Shown here: piece by piece, positions 2 to 36,108 of the stretch
Layout of the letters: every line of letters begins with the position of its first letter
Position numbering within the stretch: position 1 is the first letter of the stretch
Origin: a virus
DNA length: 36,108 nt
IMG/VR virus record: IMGVR_UViG_3300020595_000091
Span: 1-36,108 of that record
Reading direction: 5' to 3' (one strand)
Program-made: the position numbers and the translations under genes
The notes under the pieces: model-generated
What the model was told of the DNA's origin: nothing
Database searches by the model: none
What the model saw: only the letters and a program-made list of their open reading frames with translations

Positions 2-856
2 ACAGAACAAACACCAGAAGACGATGCCAAATATGGTACTGGTGAAGGTTGGGGTGGTATGTTTAGAGTTAAACCAACAGATAACGGGTATGAAATTAGA
101 AACAGCGAAAAAGGTGGCTTAGTAGCTACTATGGATGGTTCAGGTTTTACAATGTTAGATGCTGAACAATCAAAAGCTGAAATGGGTGGAGATACTGACT
201 ACATGGAACGTAGAAAAGAAATGAGCGATTACATGGAAGAAGGTGAAGCCCCAAAATCAAATAAAATGAAAAAATCAGAATTAAAAGAAATGATCAAAGC
301 AGCTATGTTAGCTGAAACTTCAGTTGAGGAAACATTAGTAGATGCTGATCAAGATATGGCCGAAGCTATCCTAAACGCTTTAGGTGGTGAAGCAGCATTT
401 GAAGCTGTAGTTAGAGCAATGTCAACAGATGACGCCCAAACTTACCTAGGTGCTATTATGAGAGACCACGATATCGAAATGGGTCCTGTAAGCGATATCC
501 CAGGATTTGAAGGTACAATGGATGCTTTAGATGCTTTATCTATTAGAGAGGAAGAAGAAGAAGATGTTGAAGACGTAGAAATCGATACTGAAGAAGAAGT
601 AGACGTTGATGTTGATATGGACATGGATTCTGACCCAGAAGGTATCGACGTAAAACAAGATGCTGAAGCTGAGTTAGGTGGTACTGTAGGTGACGTACAA
701 GATAACTTAGAAGCTGCTTTAATGGCTGCCCGTGAGTTAGGAGACGAAAAACTAGAAGACCAAATCGGTAATACCTTAACTTTCTTTACAAGACAACACG
801 TTGTTAAAGAATCATCAGACAAATCAGAATTCCCTATTTGGAATAAAATCAAATAA
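2..856 (+). CDS. Acidic phage protein, 5'-truncated by the window edge
   Basis: The reading frame is open from base 2 with no stop before the first ATG at 59, so the gene most likely starts upstream and only its C-terminal ~284 residues are here. A lysine-rich helix (KKSELKEMIKAAMLAE, coded from about 266) resembles segments in the genes at 1051 and 8066. It is followed by an Ala/Glu/Asp-rich middle with a run of Glu and alternating Asp-Val (about 545-650). The C-terminus (DNLEAALMAARELGDEKL...IGNTLTFFTRQH) looks like a compact helical domain. I do not recognise a catalytic motif. Its place at the head of a structural block and its acidity suggest a virion or prohead component. The MLAE|T sequence resembles a T4-type prohead protease site. 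Function is inferred only. Confidence 0.75.
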   Translation, partial: TEQTPEDDAKYGTGEGWGGMFRVKPTDNGYEIRNSEKGGLVATMDGSGFTMLDAEQSKAEMGGDTDYMERRKEMSDYMEEGEAPKSNKMKKSELKEMIKAAMLAETSVEETLVDADQDMAEAILNALGGEAAFEAVVRAMSTDDAQTYLGAIMRDHDIEMGPVSDIPGFEGTMDALDALSIREEEEEDVEDVEIDTEEEVDVDVDMDMDSDPEGIDVKQDAEAELGGTVGDVQDNLEAALMAARELGDEKLEDQIGNTLTFFTRQHVVKESSDKSEFPIWNKIK

Positions 857-877
857 TAAACAATAAAAATTAAATTT

Positions 878-1048
878 ATGAACACTCAAGAATTAAAAGA
901 ACAACTAGACGCGTTATACGAATCATTTACTATGGAGCACGCAGGTACTTCAAAAGCAGCACACGGACGTGCTCGTAAAGCATTAGGTGGAATCAAAAAA
1001 TTGATTTCTGAATATCGCAAAGCATCAGTTGCTGAAGATAAAAAATAA
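878..1048 (+). CDS. Small histone H1-like (Hc1-type) protein
   Basis: A 56-residue ORF starting ATG at 878 and ending TAA at 1046-1048, two bases before the next gene. It begins MNTQELKEQLDALYESF and continues with KAAHGRARKALGGIKKL and SEYRKAS, ending in Lys residues. The pattern ELK..L..L...F, then KAA..R.RK, then L..E.R, is that of the short Hc1-type histone H1-like proteins widespread in Bacteroidota (from memory of that family). Those proteins bind DNA non-specifically and help compact the nucleoid. In a phage structural block it could be packaged with DNA or act on host or phage chromatin. It is the usual length of the family. The start is the only in-frame ATG near the 5' end, with AT-rich sequence upstream. 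Confidence 0.8.
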   Translation: MNTQELKEQLDALYESFTMEHAGTSKAAHGRARKALGGIKKLISEYRKASVAEDKK

Positions 1049-1050
1049 AC

Positions 1051-2457
1051 ATGCTCAACGAACGTAAACTTACCAAGTCAGAACTTGACAGACGCGAAGA
1101 TATCATTCAAGATATGAAAAAAAACAAGCGTGGACTTGTTAAGCGTTATGGTAAGGATGCGGAAAAGGTAATGTATGGTCGTGCCACTAACCTAGCTAAA
1201 AAGAAAACAGAAGCAATGGATCAAGATAGACTAAAAGAAATGGTTAAAACTGCATTGATGGGTCCTATGAAGGAAGATCAAGTAGAAGAAGGAAATGCCT
1301 TCATCGTAGCTGCAGATGCTGCTAGAGACGCAGGTAAAAAAGAATTCGAATTTCCTGAAGGTAGTGGTAAAATTCACCCTGTTAAAATCAAAAACGATAT
1401 TAACGAATGGGGTAGTTCAGACCAGTTTGCTTTACACCAATCAATGCATAGAACCTTAGGTGAACCAACAGAATTCCCAGGTTTATCTAAAATCATGCTT
1501 GCTGCTGAAGATGCTACAGAGTTCTACATGGACGATTTCCCAGAGTATGAAACTGATAGAGAAGATTTGATACTAAATAACGCTCGTAGTTATGCTAGAA
1601 AGATGTTTCCTGATTTTATGGCTAACGCTGCTAGACTTATGGAACCTTTAGATGAAGAAAAATCCGTAGTTACTGAAAGTAAAGAAGCGGGTTTAGATGA
1701 ACTAAGAAGTATTATAGACCAAGCATCAGTTTTAGGTGAAGAAGCAAGAAATATTATTGCAGCCTACTTCCCATCATATTTAGCTCAAGGTGAAGCTTAT
1801 GGTGTGTTTAACTTTGTAGAAAGTTCTAACCCATACGATAACACATTAGTCTCTATGGTAGAAGATATCGAAGGCGACGAAGATTCATACGAAGGGGATG
1901 ACGAAGATCTTGAAGAAGGGTTGAAAGACAAACTTAAGGGAGCCTTTGTAGGGGTGTTAGGAACTTTAGGCATCCAAAAATATGGAATGGATGTACTTAA
2001 TACCATCATGAACGCTTTACCTCCTGAGAAAGCTCAAGAATTTAGCGATTACATCGAAGGTACATTACATTTAATTAATCAATCCCCATTAGAAGAGGAT
2101 CTAGATCTTGGACATCAGGACAACGAGCCACATATGTTAAAAGCTGATCTATATCGTATTGGAAAATATGCTATGGAACTTTATCAAATGGTAGATGGTT
2201 TTGAAGGTGAAGGTGAAGTAGATTTCCCACACTGGTGGCAATCAAAGATTGTTAAATCAAAAGATGCTTTAGTAGGTGCAAAACACTACTTAGATTTTGA
2301 GGTTAACGAACCACAAATCGATGCTATGGTAGATGTAGCTCAAGATGTTGAAGCTATTGATGAGTTTGATGATAAATCTATGAAGGCCTATGGAGATGCT
2401 GTTAAAAAAGCTTATGGGGTTGCTGAAAAACTAGCTAAACAATTAAAGTCTAAATAA
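1051..2457 (+). CDS. Phage protein with RYGKDAEKVMY motif, probable virion component
   Basis: A 468-residue protein. Residues ~6-52 form a strongly basic helical segment (LTKSELDRREDIIQDMKKN, then KRYGKDAEKVMYGRAT, then KKK). From memory, similar segments recur in proteins of marine T4-like and other environmental phages. Residues ~56-80 (MDQDRLKEMVKTALMG...VEEG) look like the Lys/Glu helix of the upstream acidic gene. The rest is acidic and mostly helical: a very acidic linker near residues 268-290 leads to a GLKDKLKGAFVGVLGTLG segment with small hydrophobic residues, then further helices. No enzyme motif was recognised. It begins two bases after the histone-like gene and shares one base with the next gene, so these are probably co-translated. 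A role as an internal or minor virion protein is inference. Confidence 0.8.
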   Translation: MLNERKLTKSELDRREDIIQDMKKNKRGLVKRYGKDAEKVMYGRATNLAKKKTEAMDQDRLKEMVKTALMGPMKEDQVEEGNAFIVAADAARDAGKKEFEFPEGSGKIHPVKIKNDINEWGSSDQFALHQSMHRTLGEPTEFPGLSKIMLAAEDATEFYMDDFPEYETDREDLILNNARSYARKMFPDFMANAARLMEPLDEEKSVVTESKEAGLDELRSIIDQASVLGEEARNIIAAYFPSYLAQGEAYGVFNFVESSNPYDNTLVSMVEDIEGDEDSYEGDDEDLEEGLKDKLKGAFVGVLGTLGIQKYGMDVLNTIMNALPPEKAQEFSDYIEGTLHLINQSPLEEDLDLGHQDNEPHMLKADLYRIGKYAMELYQMVDGFEGEGEVDFPHWWQSKIVKSKDALVGAKHYLDFEVNEPQIDAMVDVAQDVEAIDEFDDKSMKAYGDAVKKAYGVAEKLAKQLKSK

Positions 2458-4055: not shown

Positions 4056-4688
4056 ATGTGTGATTGTGGATGTGGAGGTTGTTCACCAACTAAACCAGTA
4101 TTGATAAATGAAAACTTAGCTCCCAAAGAAATTTTATCTGAGGGACTTAAGTATCACATGGATAACGCACGACCTCTTACCGAGCACGTGTATCGCGCGG
4201 GGTCACAAAAATATTTTGAATTATGGGCTGAAGCCCGCGCTTTATACACACGTGGTATATTAGAGGTGCAAGGTGATGATCTACAGGTATTAACTGAAAC
4301 AGATTTAGGTCATTTCGGTATAGTTGAAGGTCAAAAAGTACCATTAGATTTCCCTATCGAATTAACAGAAGGTGAAATCGATGAGGCTAAAAAGAAGAAA
4401 GCTAAGAAAAATACTAAAAAATTAAATAAACCAATGCGTGACTCTTCAGGGGGTAAAGCATATAAGGTTTATGTTAAAGACCCTAAAACCGGAAATATCA
4501 AAACAGTACGTTTTGGTTCAGGTGGTTTAAGAGCAAAAATCAACGATAAAAAAGCACGTAATGCGTTTGCTAAACGTCACAAATGTGCTCAAAAGAAGGA
4601 TAAAACTAAAGCAGGGTATTGGTCTTGCCGCTTACCACGTTATGCAAAATTACTCGGACTCAAATCAAACTTTGGTGGGTTCTGGTAA
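4056..4688 (+). CDS. Phage virion-type protein with N-terminal Cys cluster and basic C-terminal domain
   Basis: A 210-residue protein in two parts. The N-terminus is MCDCGCGGCS, with Cys at 2, 4, 6 and 9, unusual for a phage protein and suggestive of metal binding. Residues ~15-107 include ARPLTEHVYRAGSQKYFEL and TDLGHFGIVEGQKVPLDFPI, a pattern I associate with conserved proteins of marine T4-like phages. Three (L/I)xE|G sites occur, at E29, E91 and E105. After a Lys-rich linker (~110-125), the C-terminal domain (KAYKVYVKDPKTGNIKTVRFG, then RHKCAQKKDKTKAGYWSCRL) resembles DUF5872-like phage domains, with a CxnC pair that could bind zinc. Cleavage at E105 would release the basic domain, which could bind DNA. 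Exact function is unknown. Confidence 0.78.
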   Translation: MCDCGCGGCSPTKPVLINENLAPKEILSEGLKYHMDNARPLTEHVYRAGSQKYFELWAEARALYTRGILEVQGDDLQVLTETDLGHFGIVEGQKVPLDFPIELTEGEIDEAKKKKAKKNTKKLNKPMRDSSGGKAYKVYVKDPKTGNIKTVRFGSGGLRAKINDKKARNAFAKRHKCAQKKDKTKAGYWSCRLPRYAKLLGLKSNFGGFW

Positions 4689-5812: not shown

Positions 5813-7165
5813 ATGGCAGAAAAACTAGTAATCGTAGGTGCTGGTGTAGCAGGTGTTAATGCTGCAACTAAGCTAGTAGACAACGGATTCCCCGGAAAAA
5901 ACATTACAATCATTGATATGGGTAAAGATCCATATCGCAGACCATATTCAGAAGTAATGACTGGATTTTTAGGTGCTGGGGGTTGGAGTGATGGTAAATT
6001 AACTTACCACACAGCAATTGGAGGACATATGTCTAAGTATTGTGGTGAGGATAAAGCAATGGAATTGTTTGATGAGGTAATCAACAATTTTAAACGTTTT
6101 CATCCTAAACCAGAGGAAGTACAATGTTCCAACCCAGTAGCGGAACCAGATTTTATTAAACCATATTTTGGTTTACGTTTATTCCCTGTATGGCACGTTG
6201 GTACGGATTATCTACACGAAATAGGTAAAAATTGGTATGACTTTTTAGTTGATAAAGGTGTTGAGTTTATTTGGGAAACTAAAGTAACAGCTATCGATTT
6301 TGAAAGACAAATAGCACATTTTTCAGATCCAGAAGACCCAACAATCATAGGTCGAAAATACAATAAACTAATGTTTGCTGTTGGTAAATCAGGTATTGAC
6401 TTTGGTAAACAATTAGCTACAGATTATACATTACCTACTGAACCAAAACCAGTACAAATAGGTGTTCGATTTGAAGCACCACAGAAACACTTTCAAAAAC
6501 TTATTGATGTAAGTTATGATTTCAAATTGTATCGTAAATTCGAAGACAAAGGAGTATCACTACGTTCCTTCTGTACTAACAACAACGCAGCTTATGTTGC
6601 CGTTGAAGAAACGTATGGAGATCATTCGTACAATGGACACGCCAAAAAAGACGAATCATTCAGAAATAACATGACCAACTTTGGTATCTTGATGGAAGTT
6701 CAAGGTATTGATGAACCATTTACTTGGTCTAGAGAGTTAGTATCTAAAGTAAATAAAGATGGTACTGGTTTATATTATAGCCCAACACGTACTCCATCTA
6801 CAACATCTGAAGGTGAGAATGTAAGCGCTGTCACTATTAGTGAAATGGATGAAGTAAGAGAAGCATTCCAAGGTTACTATACGTACATTGATGATTTTAT
6901 TGATGATATGAAAAAAGTATTCCCAACACTTGGGGATGATTGGGGTGTTTATATTCCTGAAGTTAAGTATCTATCACCTGAACCATTGGTTAACTATGAA
7001 ACACTATCATTAGTTGATTATGATAACGTTCACTTTGTAGGTGATGCTCTATCAGCTCGTGGTATCACAGTATCAGGGGCACAAGGAATATATGTTGCCG
7101 ATGCTTTACTATCAGCATTACAATCCGAATCAGAAGAATTTCCAGAGTTTATTGAAAACTACTAG
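5813..7165 (+). CDS. FAD-dependent dehydrogenase (NAD(FAD)-utilizing, COG2509-like)
   Basis: A 450-residue protein. The N-terminus has a Rossmann dinucleotide-binding fold: LVIVGAGVAGVNAA (GxGxxG at residues 9-14) and an acidic strand end at Asp35 (ITIIDMGK). GAGGWSDGKL (~54-63) matches the GGxGxxSDGKL signature of the COG2509-type uncharacterised FAD dehydrogenases. PVQIGVRFEAP and SLRSFCTNNNAAYVAVEE match other conserved stretches of that group. The C-terminal HFVGDALSARGITVSGAQG is the second FAD-contact motif (GD...G...A..G). The protein looks complete and intact. The substrate is unknown. It is the only clear metabolic oxidoreductase in the window and lies between virion genes, so it is a likely auxiliary metabolic gene. 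The start is the first ATG, after an A-rich leader without a Shine-Dalgarno site. Confidence 0.85.
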   Translation: MAEKLVIVGAGVAGVNAATKLVDNGFPGKNITIIDMGKDPYRRPYSEVMTGFLGAGGWSDGKLTYHTAIGGHMSKYCGEDKAMELFDEVINNFKRFHPKPEEVQCSNPVAEPDFIKPYFGLRLFPVWHVGTDYLHEIGKNWYDFLVDKGVEFIWETKVTAIDFERQIAHFSDPEDPTIIGRKYNKLMFAVGKSGIDFGKQLATDYTLPTEPKPVQIGVRFEAPQKHFQKLIDVSYDFKLYRKFEDKGVSLRSFCTNNNAAYVAVEETYGDHSYNGHAKKDESFRNNMTNFGILMEVQGIDEPFTWSRELVSKVNKDGTGLYYSPTRTPSTTSEGENVSAVTISEMDEVREAFQGYYTYIDDFIDDMKKVFPTLGDDWGVYIPEVKYLSPEPLVNYETLSLVDYDNVHFVGDALSARGITVSGAQGIYVADALLSALQSESEEFPEFIENY

Positions 7166-24117: not shown

Positions 24118-24960
24118 ATGGCTTTATTTACCCCAACTGCATATTGGGGAGAGGATTCATCCCCTCCTGCTCCATTCGCTCCTTCTGACATCCCTAATTT
24201 AGCAGCATGGTATGATGCTAGTGATACTAGTACTTATAGAATGAGTGGAACTCAAATAGCAGGTATTCAGGGAAGAAATGGATATGGAGATGACTTAGAT
24301 TCAGCCGGAAACACCTACCCCGTAGCAGGATCTACACAAAATGGTTTAAATACTTTATATTTCAATGGATCAGGACTATTTGTAAATCCTTATAACGACC
24401 CTTTAGCTACCAATGGTTTACATTTTGCTGTTGGGGTATTTTATCCCCAAAATGTTAACGCTACAAAAGACTCATTATGGAGTCTGGAATCTACCAGCTA
24501 TAATTATGCTGTTTCTTCGAACCAAAATTTTGCATGGTGGGGGGAAGTAGATATGGGGAATGGTGTGGGTTCAAATATTAGAATAGGACCTTTTTCATCC
24601 ACCAACTATGAAAATCAATGGATTATAGTATCCGTAGCATTTACTAAACTCCCAAGTCCTAATATGGTCCAGTTTTGGATAAATGCTCATGTAGGTAGTA
24701 GTAGTAATGGTTGGAGAACAACTTATTTGACTAATCTAGATACTAACCAAAAGCTACGTATAATGGCTAATAGAAGTGGTGGTAAAAAACAAGAAGGTAG
24801 GTTTGGAGAATTACTAATATATAATGGTGAATGTGGTGTTCCTGGTACGGTTGATGATAACCTTTTCTACAGATACCAAGCAGAAGGATATCTAGCTTGG
24901 AAGTGGGGATTACAAGCAAAATTACCATCAAACCACCCTTATAGAAACTCAGCCCCATAA
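24118..24960 (+). CDS. Lectin/LamG-like receptor-binding protein, copy 1
   Basis: A 280-residue protein starting MALFTPTAYWGEDSSPPAPF. PSDIPNLAAWYDASDTSTY and the C-terminal EGYLAWKWGLQAKLPSNHPY are the hallmarks of the concanavalin/LamG-like domain used in many phage and environmental surface proteins. The middle is a beta-sandwich (LHFAVGVFYPQNV, then WWGEVDMGNGVGSNIRIGPF). It begins two bases after the fibre gene stop and is followed by a paralogue. It is probably a glycan-binding tip on the fibre. The carbohydrate is unknown. Confidence 0.82.
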   Translation: MALFTPTAYWGEDSSPPAPFAPSDIPNLAAWYDASDTSTYRMSGTQIAGIQGRNGYGDDLDSAGNTYPVAGSTQNGLNTLYFNGSGLFVNPYNDPLATNGLHFAVGVFYPQNVNATKDSLWSLESTSYNYAVSSNQNFAWWGEVDMGNGVGSNIRIGPFSSTNYENQWIIVSVAFTKLPSPNMVQFWINAHVGSSSNGWRTTYLTNLDTNQKLRIMANRSGGKKQEGRFGELLIYNGECGVPGTVDDNLFYRYQAEGYLAWKWGLQAKLPSNHPYRNSAP

Positions 24961-24961
24961 T

Positions 24962-25804
24962 ATGGCTTTATTCACACCAACTATGTATTGGGGGGAAACC
25001 TCTCCCCCCTCCCCTCCACCTTTTTCCCCTACTAGTATTCCTAATTTAGCAGGATGGTATGATGCTAGTGATACTACTAGTTATATAAAAAGCGGAACAA
25101 CAACAACTGGAATTAGATCACAAGGTAATTATGGTGATAATTTAGGTGTAATAGGCAATAGTAACCCAGTAACAGGGGTTCAACAAAATGGTTTAGATTG
25201 TTTATATTTTGGAGGTAGTACTGCTTTTGAAAACAGCAACACAGATCCTTTAGTTGGTAGTAGTGGTTACCACTTTGCTGTAGGAGTATTTCGACCTATG
25301 GTTGTTAATGATTCTAAAGATTCTTTATGGAGTTTAGATGCTAATCGAGATTATGCTGTTTCTGCTAATAGTACATCCCGATTTTGGGGAGAAGTAGATT
25401 TAGGAAATGGGGTAGGGAGTAGTGGAGTATTAGGACCCTTTAGTACTGTAAATAGAGAGAATAATTGGATTATATACACTGTAGCATTTTCCTACGAGAT
25501 GGGATGGCGATATATAAGACATTTTATAAATGGTAGTAATCTTAGTAGTCAGTCTACTCATAGAATGAGTTATATGACCGGTAATAACTTAGATGTTTAT
25601 CAAAGATTACGTATAATGGCTAACAGAAATGGTAATAAAAAACTAACAGGACGTTTTGGGGAACTATTATTATTTAATGGTGATCCTAGTGAGTTTATGA
25701 ATAGCCACGTACATGATCGAAAAGCAGAAGGATATTTAGCTTGGAAATGGGGATTACAAGGAAACTTACCATCAAACCACCCTTATAAAAATGCTGCCCC
25801 ATAA
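24962..25804 (+). CDS. Lectin/LamG-like receptor-binding protein, copy 2
   Basis: A 280-residue paralogue of the preceding protein, identical in length and order of motifs: TSIPNLAGWYDASDTTSY, YHFAVGVFRPM, RFWGEVDLGNGVGSSGVLGP, LRIMANRNGNKKLTGRFGEL and EGYLAWKWGLQGNLPSNHPY. The scaffold is well conserved while loops differ strongly (for example the region after VAFSYEMGWRYIRHF and the segment before the final helix). This fits divergence of binding loops after a tandem duplication. It lies one base after copy 1 and likely belongs to the same transcript. Confidence 0.82.
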   Translation: MALFTPTMYWGETSPPSPPPFSPTSIPNLAGWYDASDTTSYIKSGTTTTGIRSQGNYGDNLGVIGNSNPVTGVQQNGLDCLYFGGSTAFENSNTDPLVGSSGYHFAVGVFRPMVVNDSKDSLWSLDANRDYAVSANSTSRFWGEVDLGNGVGSSGVLGPFSTVNRENNWIIYTVAFSYEMGWRYIRHFINGSNLSSQSTHRMSYMTGNNLDVYQRLRIMANRNGNKKLTGRFGELLLFNGDPSEFMNSHVHDRKAEGYLAWKWGLQGNLPSNHPYKNAAP

Positions 25805-29274: not shown

Positions 29275-31467
29275 ATGGCTCAAATTAATATTCAATATAC
29301 CTCTGGTAGCGCTGTAGATAATCCTGGAACTGGACAAATAGCGATATTTACCTCAGGCTCCTTAGGTAACTCTTCACTATTTTTAAAAGAATCTGATGGT
29401 AATATTATCACTGTAGGAAGTGGTAGTGGCGGCGGTGGTGGTCCTCAGGGTCCAACTGGTCCTCAGGGTCCAAGTGGTCCTGCAGGTTCTGTAGGTGCAA
29501 CAGGTGCAACAGGTGCTCAAGGTCCTAGTGGTGCTACAGGTGCCCAAGGTCCTATTGGTCCTACAGGAGCAGCTTCAACAGTAGCAGGCCCTACAGGTCC
29601 TACAGGTCCTAGTGGTCCTAGTGGTGTAGCAGGTCCTAGTGGTGTAGCAGGTGCAACAGGAGCTCAAGGTCCTAGTGGTGCTACAGGTGCTCAAGGTCCT
29701 ATTGGTGCTACAGGTGCTGCAGGTTCAACAGGTGCTCAAGGTCCTAGTGGTGCTACAGGTGCTCAAGGTCCTATTGGTCCTATTGGTCCTATTGGTGCTA
29801 CAGGTGCTGCAGGTTCAACAGGTGCTCAAGGTCCTAGTGGTCCTAGTGGTGTAGCAGGTCCTAGTGGTGCAGCAGGTGCAACAGGTGCTCAAGGTCCTAG
29901 TGGTGCTACAGGTGCTCAAGGTCCTATTGGTCCTATTGGTGCTACAGGTGCTGCAGGTTCAACAGGTGCTCAAGGTCCTAGTGGTCCTAGTGGTGTAGCA
30001 GGTCCTAGTGGTGTAGCAGGTGCAACAGGTGCTCAAGGTCCTAGTGGTGCTACAGGTGCTCAAGGTCCTACAGGTCCTACAGGAGCAGCTTCAACAGTAG
30101 CAGGTCCAACAGGTGCTCAAGGTGCTCAAGGTGCTACAGGTGCTCAAGGTGCTACAGGTGCTCAAGGTGCTACAGGTCCTAGTGGTCCTATTGGTCCTAT
30201 TGGTCCTATTGGTCCTACAGGAGCAGATTCAACAGTAGCAGGTCCTACTGGTCCTACTGGTCCTAGCGGTCCTATTGGTGCTACAGGTGCCCAAGGTGCT
30301 ACAGGTGCCCAAGGTGCTACAGGTGCTACAGGTCCTAGCGGTCCTATTGGTCCTATTGGTCCTACAGGAGCAGATTCAACAGTAGCAGGTCCTACTGGTC
30401 CTACGGGTCCTAGTGGTCCTATTGGTGCTACAGGTGCCCAAGGTGCTACAGGTCCTAGTGGTCCTATTGGTCCTATTGGTCCTATTGGTCCTACAGGAGC
30501 AGATTCAACAGTAGCAGGTCCTACTGGTCCTACTGGTCCTAGCGGTCCTATTGGTCCTATTGGTCCTATTGGTCCTACAGGTACTACAGGTGCTCAAGGT
30601 GCTACAGGTCCTAGCGGTCCTATTGGTCCTATTGGTGCTACAGGTGCTGCAGGTTCAACAGGTATTCAAGGTCCTACAGGTCCTACTGGTCCTGCAGGAA
30701 CAGCAGATGCTTATTATACAGGTTCTTTAGTTGTAGCTGATTATGATACTATTAACTTCAAAGGAACAGGAGTTAAAGTTGTAGCTTCGGGATCACAAGG
30801 TATTGAAGTTGAAGTAACTAGTGGTACTGGTGGAGGTGGAGCCTCATATAACCCAGTTATTAGATATGAAGTAACTTCAGGTAATAACGTAGCACAACTG
30901 TTATCATCAGGTAACGTAGAAGGTGGTTTAAGTTGGACTCGTTCAGGTGCTACCTTAACAGTTACTAAAGTCTCTCACGGCTTATCAACTGGAGACTACG
31001 TTATAATCAGAAATATGAGTGAAGATTATACATATGTTTCTATTACTTCAACTGGGACTGATACTTTTACAGCTACAGTAGCTAGTTCAGGTGATACTAG
31101 TGGTGATGAAGGTGCTTATATCCCAGCATTTGATGTTTCAGCTTTAACAAACACAGCTTTAACTCTAGAATCTCCATCATCAGGGAACGTACAACTTATT
31201 TCAGTAACTACGTTCTTAGACCAAATGGAAGATGCTACTATTACAGTAACTGTTCCTAATAACGCTATAACAAATGGTGCTGGTAAGCAGAATACTTTAA
31301 ACTCTAGAGTACCAGCCGCATTTAACTATTATAATGTTGGGGGTTCTAGCTCAAGTCAAGTAAACGCAGCATCCCTAACTTTTAGTACAACTACTAACCA
31401 TAATATTTACTCATTATCAGGTGGTTTAGATGTGTTTGGGGATGTATTATACACTTTACATTTCTAA
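29275..31467 (+). CDS. Collagen-like fibre protein 1 (730 aa)
   Basis: The N-terminal ~55 residues ([20 protein letters not shown]...[14 protein letters not shown]) are a short attachment domain followed by a Gly linker. Residues ~56-477 are Gly-X-Y collagen triplets, about 140, mostly [12 protein letters not shown] and GAQ, interrupted several times by STVA after GAA or GAD. The C-terminal ~250 residues form a beta-rich head ([20 protein letters not shown]...), which probably trimerises and binds the receptor. Collagen repeats make long trimeric rods in phage fibres. A terminator follows directly. Confidence 0.9.
29440..30705 (+). repeat. Collagen-coding repeat tract 1
   Basis: About 1.27 kb of near-identical nine-base units (GGTCCTAGT, GGTCCTATT, GGTGCTACAGGTGCTCAA and similar) coding Gly-X-Y. 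A limited synonymous codon choice makes the DNA itself highly repetitive, which would favour slippage and recombination. Confidence 0.9.
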
Positions 31468-35146: not shown

Positions 35147-36108
35147 ATGCCAAATTGGAAAAAAGTCATCGTCTCCGGAAGCGATGCAACACTTAACAGT
35201 ATTGAAGCTACAGGGGGTCTAACTCTAGGTTCCCTCCCCGCCCAAACATCTGAAAATACTATTCTTACCATAAACTCCAGTGGTATAGTAGGTACTAAAG
35301 AACAAAGCGCAGGTCCTATTGGTCCTATCGGTCCTACAGGTCCTACAGGAGCTCAAGGTCCTATTGGTCCACAAGGTGCTCAAGGTCCTATCGGACCACA
35401 AGGTGCTATTGGTCCTATAGGTCCTATCGGTCCTCAAGGTGCTATCGGTCCTCAAGGTGCTATCGGTCCTCAAGGTGCTATCGGTCCTATTGGACCACAA
35501 GGTGCTATTGGTCCTATTGGTCCTATTGGTCCTATTGGTCCTACGGGTTCTACAGGAGCTCAAGGTCCTATTGGTCCTATTGGTCCACAAGGAGCTCAAG
35601 GTCCTATCGGTCCTCAAGGTGCTATTGGTCCTATTGGTCCACAAGGTGCTCAAGGTCCTATTGGCCCACAAGGTGCTATCGGTCCTATTGGTCCTATTGG
35701 TCCTATAGGCCCTACGGGTTCTACAGGAGCTCAAGGTCCTATCGGTCCTATTGGTCCACAAGGTGCTCAAGGTCCTATCGGTCCTCAAGGTGCTATTGGT
35801 CCTATTGGCCCAATCGGTCCTATTGGTCCTACGGGTTCTACAGGAGCTCAAGGTCCTATTGGTCCTATTGGTCCACAAGGTGCTATCGGTCCTATCGGAC
35901 CACAAGGTGCTATCGGTCCTATCGGACCACAAGGTGCTATCGGTCCTATCGGGCCACAAGGTGCTCAAGGTCCTATTGGCCCACAAGGCGCTATCGGTCC
36001 TATTGGTCCTATTGGTCCTATAGGCCCTACGGGTTCTACAGGAGCTCAAGGTCCTATTGGTCCTATTGGTCCACAAGGTGCTATCGGTCCTATCGGACCA
36101 CCAGGTGC
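35147..36108 (+). CDS. Collagen-like fibre protein 2, truncated at the window end
   Basis: The frame starts [20 protein letters not shown] and stays open to the last base, so the 3' end lies outside the window. The first ~12 residues match the anchor of the 32775 fibre. After a short domain ([20 protein letters not shown]) Gly-X-Y triplets begin at about residue 56 and continue to the end, mostly GPI, GPQ, GAI and GAQ, with GPTGSTGAQ recurring. It is thus a second collagen-like fibre, distinct in composition from the first (Ile/Gln-rich rather than Thr/Ser-rich). Length and C-terminal tip cannot be seen. Confidence 0.88.
35312..36108 (+). repeat. Collagen-coding repeat tract 2
   Basis: The tract is made of nine-base units GGTCCTATT, GGTCCACAA, GGTGCTATC and near variants to the window end. 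A marker segment CCTACGGGTTCTACAGGAGC recurs at 35540, 35711, 35828 and 36026, at spacings of 171, 117 and 198 bases, all multiples of nine. Confidence 0.9.

Follow-up and report, generated by a model that had tools for sequence, protein, structure and literature searches.

The DNA analysed here comes from a marine phage and is IMG/VR virus record IMGVR_UViG_3300020595_000091, a stretch of 36,108 bases that is referred to as a whole as the window. Near its start lies a short gene encoding an Hc1-domain protein, placed between two larger genes on the same strand. The features of the locus are as follows.

2..856, plus strand: neighbour A on the upstream side, its ORF open at the start of the window, an acidic protein matching no family of known function; adjoins Hc1 in one of two arrangements.
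878..1048, plus strand: Hc1-domain protein of 56 aa, a single PF07432 domain without a C-terminal tail; ATG to TAA.
881..943, plus strand: codons for residues 2-22, which include predicted helix 1 (residues 3-21); its net charge is -4 and its acidic positions vary (AlphaFold, charge count and column entropies).
953..1042, plus strand: codons for predicted helix 2 (residues 26-55), which has conserved basic residues and a net charge of +6 (AlphaFold and column conservation).
1051..2457, plus strand: downstream neighbour B, 468 aa, with a weak match to phrog_12788 (unknown function).

The product of ORF 878-1048 is MNTQELKEQLDALYESFTMEHAGTSKAAHGRARKALGGIKKLISEYRKASVAEDKK. The first-pass annotation, made from the sequence alone, had described this 56-aa ORF and recognised an Hc1 domain in it; both points are borne out, the former by the ORF list and translation and the latter by the profile search it had proposed. 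Pfam model PF07432 (Hc1) matches the protein with an E value of 6.5e-8 and a score of 32.8 bits (cut-off 23.5), residues 4-56 being aligned to positions 5-57 of the 57 in the model. The score exceeds the curated cut-off across the domain, and the protein displays the KA...R.RK motif and the basic second-helix pattern common to bacterial members of the family (alignment with bacterial relative L086; conservation across 123 sequences). A search of the window protein against PHROGs v4 gave no significant match, and one against NCBIfam gave nothing above a curated cut-off. Searching the whole record with the family located this single Hc1 site. The stop of the preceding ORF (856) is separated from the start of the gene by 21 nt, and the next ATG (1051) follows the gene's own stop after 2 nt, so that the tight coupling to the next gene noted in the first pass holds in this arrangement. 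The net charge of the whole protein is +3, and in most relatives it ranges from 0 to about +5. ORF 878-1048 is a real, conserved phage gene, because 259 related IMG/VR loci were found (one scan, with the window protein as query) and close relatives are under purifying selection (median dN/dS about 0.064, an approximate value with synonymous sites near saturation in many pairs).

Genes for a terminase, a portal protein, a head maturation protease and a T4-type major head protein are located about 8 kb downstream of the Hc1 gene, supporting the assignment of a T4-like head module to the window phage. The earlier placement of Hc1 between two probable virion genes is upheld in part: the gene does lie upstream of these head genes, but the genes on either side of it gave no match to a family of known function. 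The late block also encodes a 450-aa protein resembling FAD/NAD-dependent oxidoreductases (5813-7165; Pyr_redox_2, E 3.7e-6). A gene of this type, an enzyme unusual for a phage structural region, stays between Hc1 and the terminase in many relatives. In the same block, the protein encoded at 4056-4688 (phrog_7595, unknown function) has a strongly basic C-terminal part and is a candidate DNA-binding protein, as is a very basic 97-aa protein encoded two genes upstream of Hc1 in locus L001 (3448-3741). Two ORFs further along the window (29275-31467 and 35147-36106) contain long collagen-like G-X-Y repeats, with longest runs of 56 and 88 triplets, and their products are probably proteins of fibres or the tail. 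A tandem pair of 280-aa paralogues, sharing 54% identity, is encoded at 24118-24960 and 24962-25804.

Relatives of the Hc1 protein are widespread among viral contigs. A further scan with a bacterial relative as query found at least 562 viral loci, matches of relatives to PF07432 reach E 3e-19, and exactly one Hc1 copy was present in each of the 20 long viral records inspected. Among isolated phages, only members of the genus Immutovirus, which are Flavobacterium phages, give a match (56% identity); a further match comes from the 635-kb genome of an uncultured phage. No relative was detected in plasmids at E 0.01. Sixteen terminase relatives had 5 kb or more of sequence upstream, and in 3 of these 16 the Hc1 gene was found there; a PF07432 match was present in 2 of 16 whole records searched, both of them listed because their loci had already shown one. 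Presence in the window lineage looks patchy, although all of these records are fragments and the gene may lie beyond their ends.

By terminase, the closest isolate is again Immutovirus (60.5% identity). A Bacteroidota host for the window phage is therefore probable from sequence comparison, since the nearest isolate by both terminase (60.5%) and Hc1 (56%) infects Flavobacterium. The first-pass annotation had pointed to the same phylum on the basis of the Hc1 protein; the phylum is probably right, but Hc1 alone is a weak marker and was rejected as such, because the same form occurs in a second phylum. Members without the tail also occur in bacteria, with a match in 14 of 149 genomes of Fidelibacterota/Marinimicrobia (the phylum of G003). 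One of these relatives, of equal size, is encoded on a contig beside polA, showing that tail-less forms exist in cells too; polA was not beside Hc1 in the other Fidelibacterota loci, each only 2-3 kb long. PF07432 is also present in the Bacteroidota control genome Bacteroides ihuae. Two apparent bacterial matches were set aside. Contig CAJQJC010000016.1 (L084), assigned to a Candidatus Pelagibacter MAG, has the phage gene block A-Hc1-B-C-E and thus comes from a phage, having been placed in a bacterial genome by binning, and the match in a 'Deltaproteobacteria' MAG (L085) is probably not a bacterial homologue, as it groups with phage proteins.

In a tree of 123 sequences, the window clade including Immutovirus forms one group (support 98/85) apart from the sampled bacterial sequences, while neither the remaining phage sequences nor the bacterial sequences form a single group. 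This tree is built on 61 columns, is poorly resolved and contains no Bacteroidota host sequences, and it was used only for the single origin of the window clade. These sequences speak neither for nor against a direct host origin of phage Hc1.

Most knowledge of Hc1 comes from Chlamydia, in which the protein condenses the chromosome. The DNA-binding domain of chlamydial Hc1 (HctA) is in the lysine-rich C-terminal half, and a potential dimerisation site has been reported in the N-terminal part (PMC3469542). The window protein shares the Hc1 N-terminal domain with HctA but lacks the lysine-rich half, ending at residue 56 with the end of the domain. The HctA model NF051889 did not match the window protein, and with two relatives it gave only 20.7-24.2 bits (cut-off 100) over positions 8-58 of 121. 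The window protein is, on sequence grounds, a member of the Hc1 domain family and not an HctA-type histone H1 homologue. Since only the N-terminal part of Hc1 is present, the term 'histone' should not be taken to name a function here, and a histone role does not follow from the match when the C-terminal region is absent. Moraphages, whose predicted hosts are mostly Bacteroidota, also encode PF07432 proteins, of unknown function, for which genome compaction has been suggested (Perez-Hernandez et al. 2025, PMC12619734). These proteins belong to the same Pfam family as the window protein and are likened to it by family assignment; moraphages are a different phage lineage with genomes of up to 307 kb.

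The closest relative from an isolated phage is gp196 of Flavobacterium phage immuto (Immutovirus; YP_010114487.1), a single-copy protein about 56% identical to the window protein over 55 residues. It is annotated as a hypothetical protein and scores exactly at the Pfam cut-off. Its gene is located after groEL, about 77 kb from the terminase, whereas that of the window lies in the late block upstream of the head genes; a homologue of B is nevertheless found upstream of the terminase in Immutovirus. In one Immutovirus locus (L082, 10138-14756), annotated queuosine-type and DpdA DNA-modification genes (FolE, QueD, QueE, QueF and DpdA) are situated upstream of Hc1. The tail-less Hc1 proteins of Fidelibacterota/Marinimicrobia (such as L086) are equal in size to the window protein and possess the same conserved second helix, but the loop between their helices is longer by four residues.

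AlphaFold (40-sequence alignment) predicts a two-helix hairpin, with helices at residues 3-21 and 26-55 (mean pLDDT 97.4, pTM 0.77); structure prediction had also been proposed in the first-pass annotation. Nine columns are mostly K/R among 123 distinct sequences, all of them in helix 2 (K26, R31, R33, K34, K40, K41, R47, K48 and K55), and K26, R33, K34, K40, R47 and K55 are among the invariant columns of the 40-sequence alignment. The mean entropy of these nine columns is 0.30 bits, compared with 1.59 bits for seven mostly acidic columns (permutation p = 5e-5), in a sample that is mostly phage and was gathered by conserved peptide patterns, which may inflate conservation in some columns. On an ideal helix 2, the centre of the basic residues lies about 139 degrees from that of the large hydrophobic residues. 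Conserved basic and variable acidic positions fit the pattern expected of a nucleic-acid-binding face. Comparison of the hairpin model with PDB folds gave no significant match (best E 0.7), the nearest neighbours, themselves non-significant, being the phage anti-activator Aqs1 and small hairpin chains of eukaryotic large ribosomal subunits; PDB sequence searches gave only chance-level helical matches. As the fold is too simple and its structural matches are at chance level, it was left out of the argument on function.

The explanation we favour, with moderate confidence, is that the protein is a small nucleoid-associated protein acting in the infected cell, with the basic face of helix 2 on DNA and probably as a dimer. 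It would represent the phage counterpart of the Hc1 N-terminal domain, modelled as a hairpin of an acidic helix 1 and a conserved basic helix 2. By analogy with the potential N-terminal dimerisation site of chlamydial Hc1, the hairpin may self-associate, and the basic helix-2 faces could then be laid on DNA. Acting in this way, it may bridge or organise the phage genome during replication, the nucleoid of the host, or the two together, the place and time of action being likewise inferred. Two features of the sequence argue against this reading: the C-terminal region, which is the DNA-binding part of chlamydial Hc1, is missing, and the protein as a whole carries little net charge (+3).

An unlikely alternative is that Hc1 is a virion internal protein, packaged with the genome to compact DNA in the head or ejected with it. 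The gene is in the late block upstream of the terminase, portal and capsid genes in 73 of the best 80 of the 259 loci, the close-locus set that represents the window lineage, and compaction during packaging has been proposed for moraphages (PMC12619734). In this set, Hc1 is located beside A/B in 38 loci, beside G/H (genes found about 4 kb further along in the window) in 35 and elsewhere in 7. A broader second set shows three further settings. In the first, Hc1 adjoins an endolysin and a baseplate-hub gene, with tail sheath and tube genes nearby, and this proximity to tail or lysis genes would also suit a virion protein. In the second, its neighbours are a clamp loader and a ClpP-like protease of the head-maturation type, and in the third it is near a DnaB-like helicase and ribonucleotide reductase. 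The clamp loader, helicase and reductase neighbours speak against a virion protein, as does the Immutovirus copy after groEL, so far from the terminase. Across relatives the gene is not kept inside the structural module, as a virion internal protein would be expected to be. Because several settings occur besides the virion block, the setting alone provides no argument for a role in the head, and this part of the first-pass reading is not supported. No virion proteomics was found in the open-access literature searched; a paper on Baltic Flavobacterium phages contains no mass spectrometry and does not name immuto. The variable surroundings of the gene, among them replication and nucleotide-metabolism settings, suit a stand-alone protein at work in the cell, as in the favoured nucleoid-associated reading, better than a set component of a virion module.

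It is improbable that the protein instead hijacks host chromatin, the tail-less hairpin pairing with host Hc1 and displacing or inactivating it as a dominant-negative or remodelling subunit. The only part retained is the one corresponding to the reported potential dimerisation region, and PF07432 occurs in Bacteroidota (Bacteroides ihuae), the likely host phylum. However, the basic residues are the most conserved feature, beyond what pairing alone needs, and the bacterial relatives found here are tail-less too, so absence of the tail is not a phage-specific loss. Equally improbable is a role unrelated to chromatin, in which the small helical hairpin would have RNA or a protein of host or phage as its binding partner. 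The resemblance to Aqs1 and ribosomal hairpin chains would suit such a binder, as would the title of a study cited in PMC12619734, according to which chlamydial Hc1 interacts with RNA and DNA. Those structural matches are nevertheless at chance level, while the Hc1 match is specific and above its cut-off, and the bacterial chromosomal members of the family argue against a phage-specific inhibitor. Very doubtful, finally, is the proposal that tail-less Hc1 serves phages widely as a takeover factor, pairing with host Hc1 and rebuilding or dismantling the host nucleoid, and that working on its own lets it move from one gene block to another among unrelated marine phages.

Phage PF07432 proteins and the idea of genome compaction are already known, having been published for moraphages in 2025 (PMC12619734). 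Relative to the open-access literature searched, the present analysis adds the occurrence of Hc1 in a T4-like, Immutovirus-related lineage and on hundreds of other viral contigs, together with its single copy, changing genomic position, missing C-terminal region and conserved basic second helix. The family is a widespread phage family for which PHROGs v4 offered no significant match here. A cultured phage with a cultured host carries the gene (Immutovirus on Flavobacterium), making the question of its function testable. That a tail-less form is kept, as one strongly conserved gene, on hundreds of viral contigs points to some general purpose for which phages use it.
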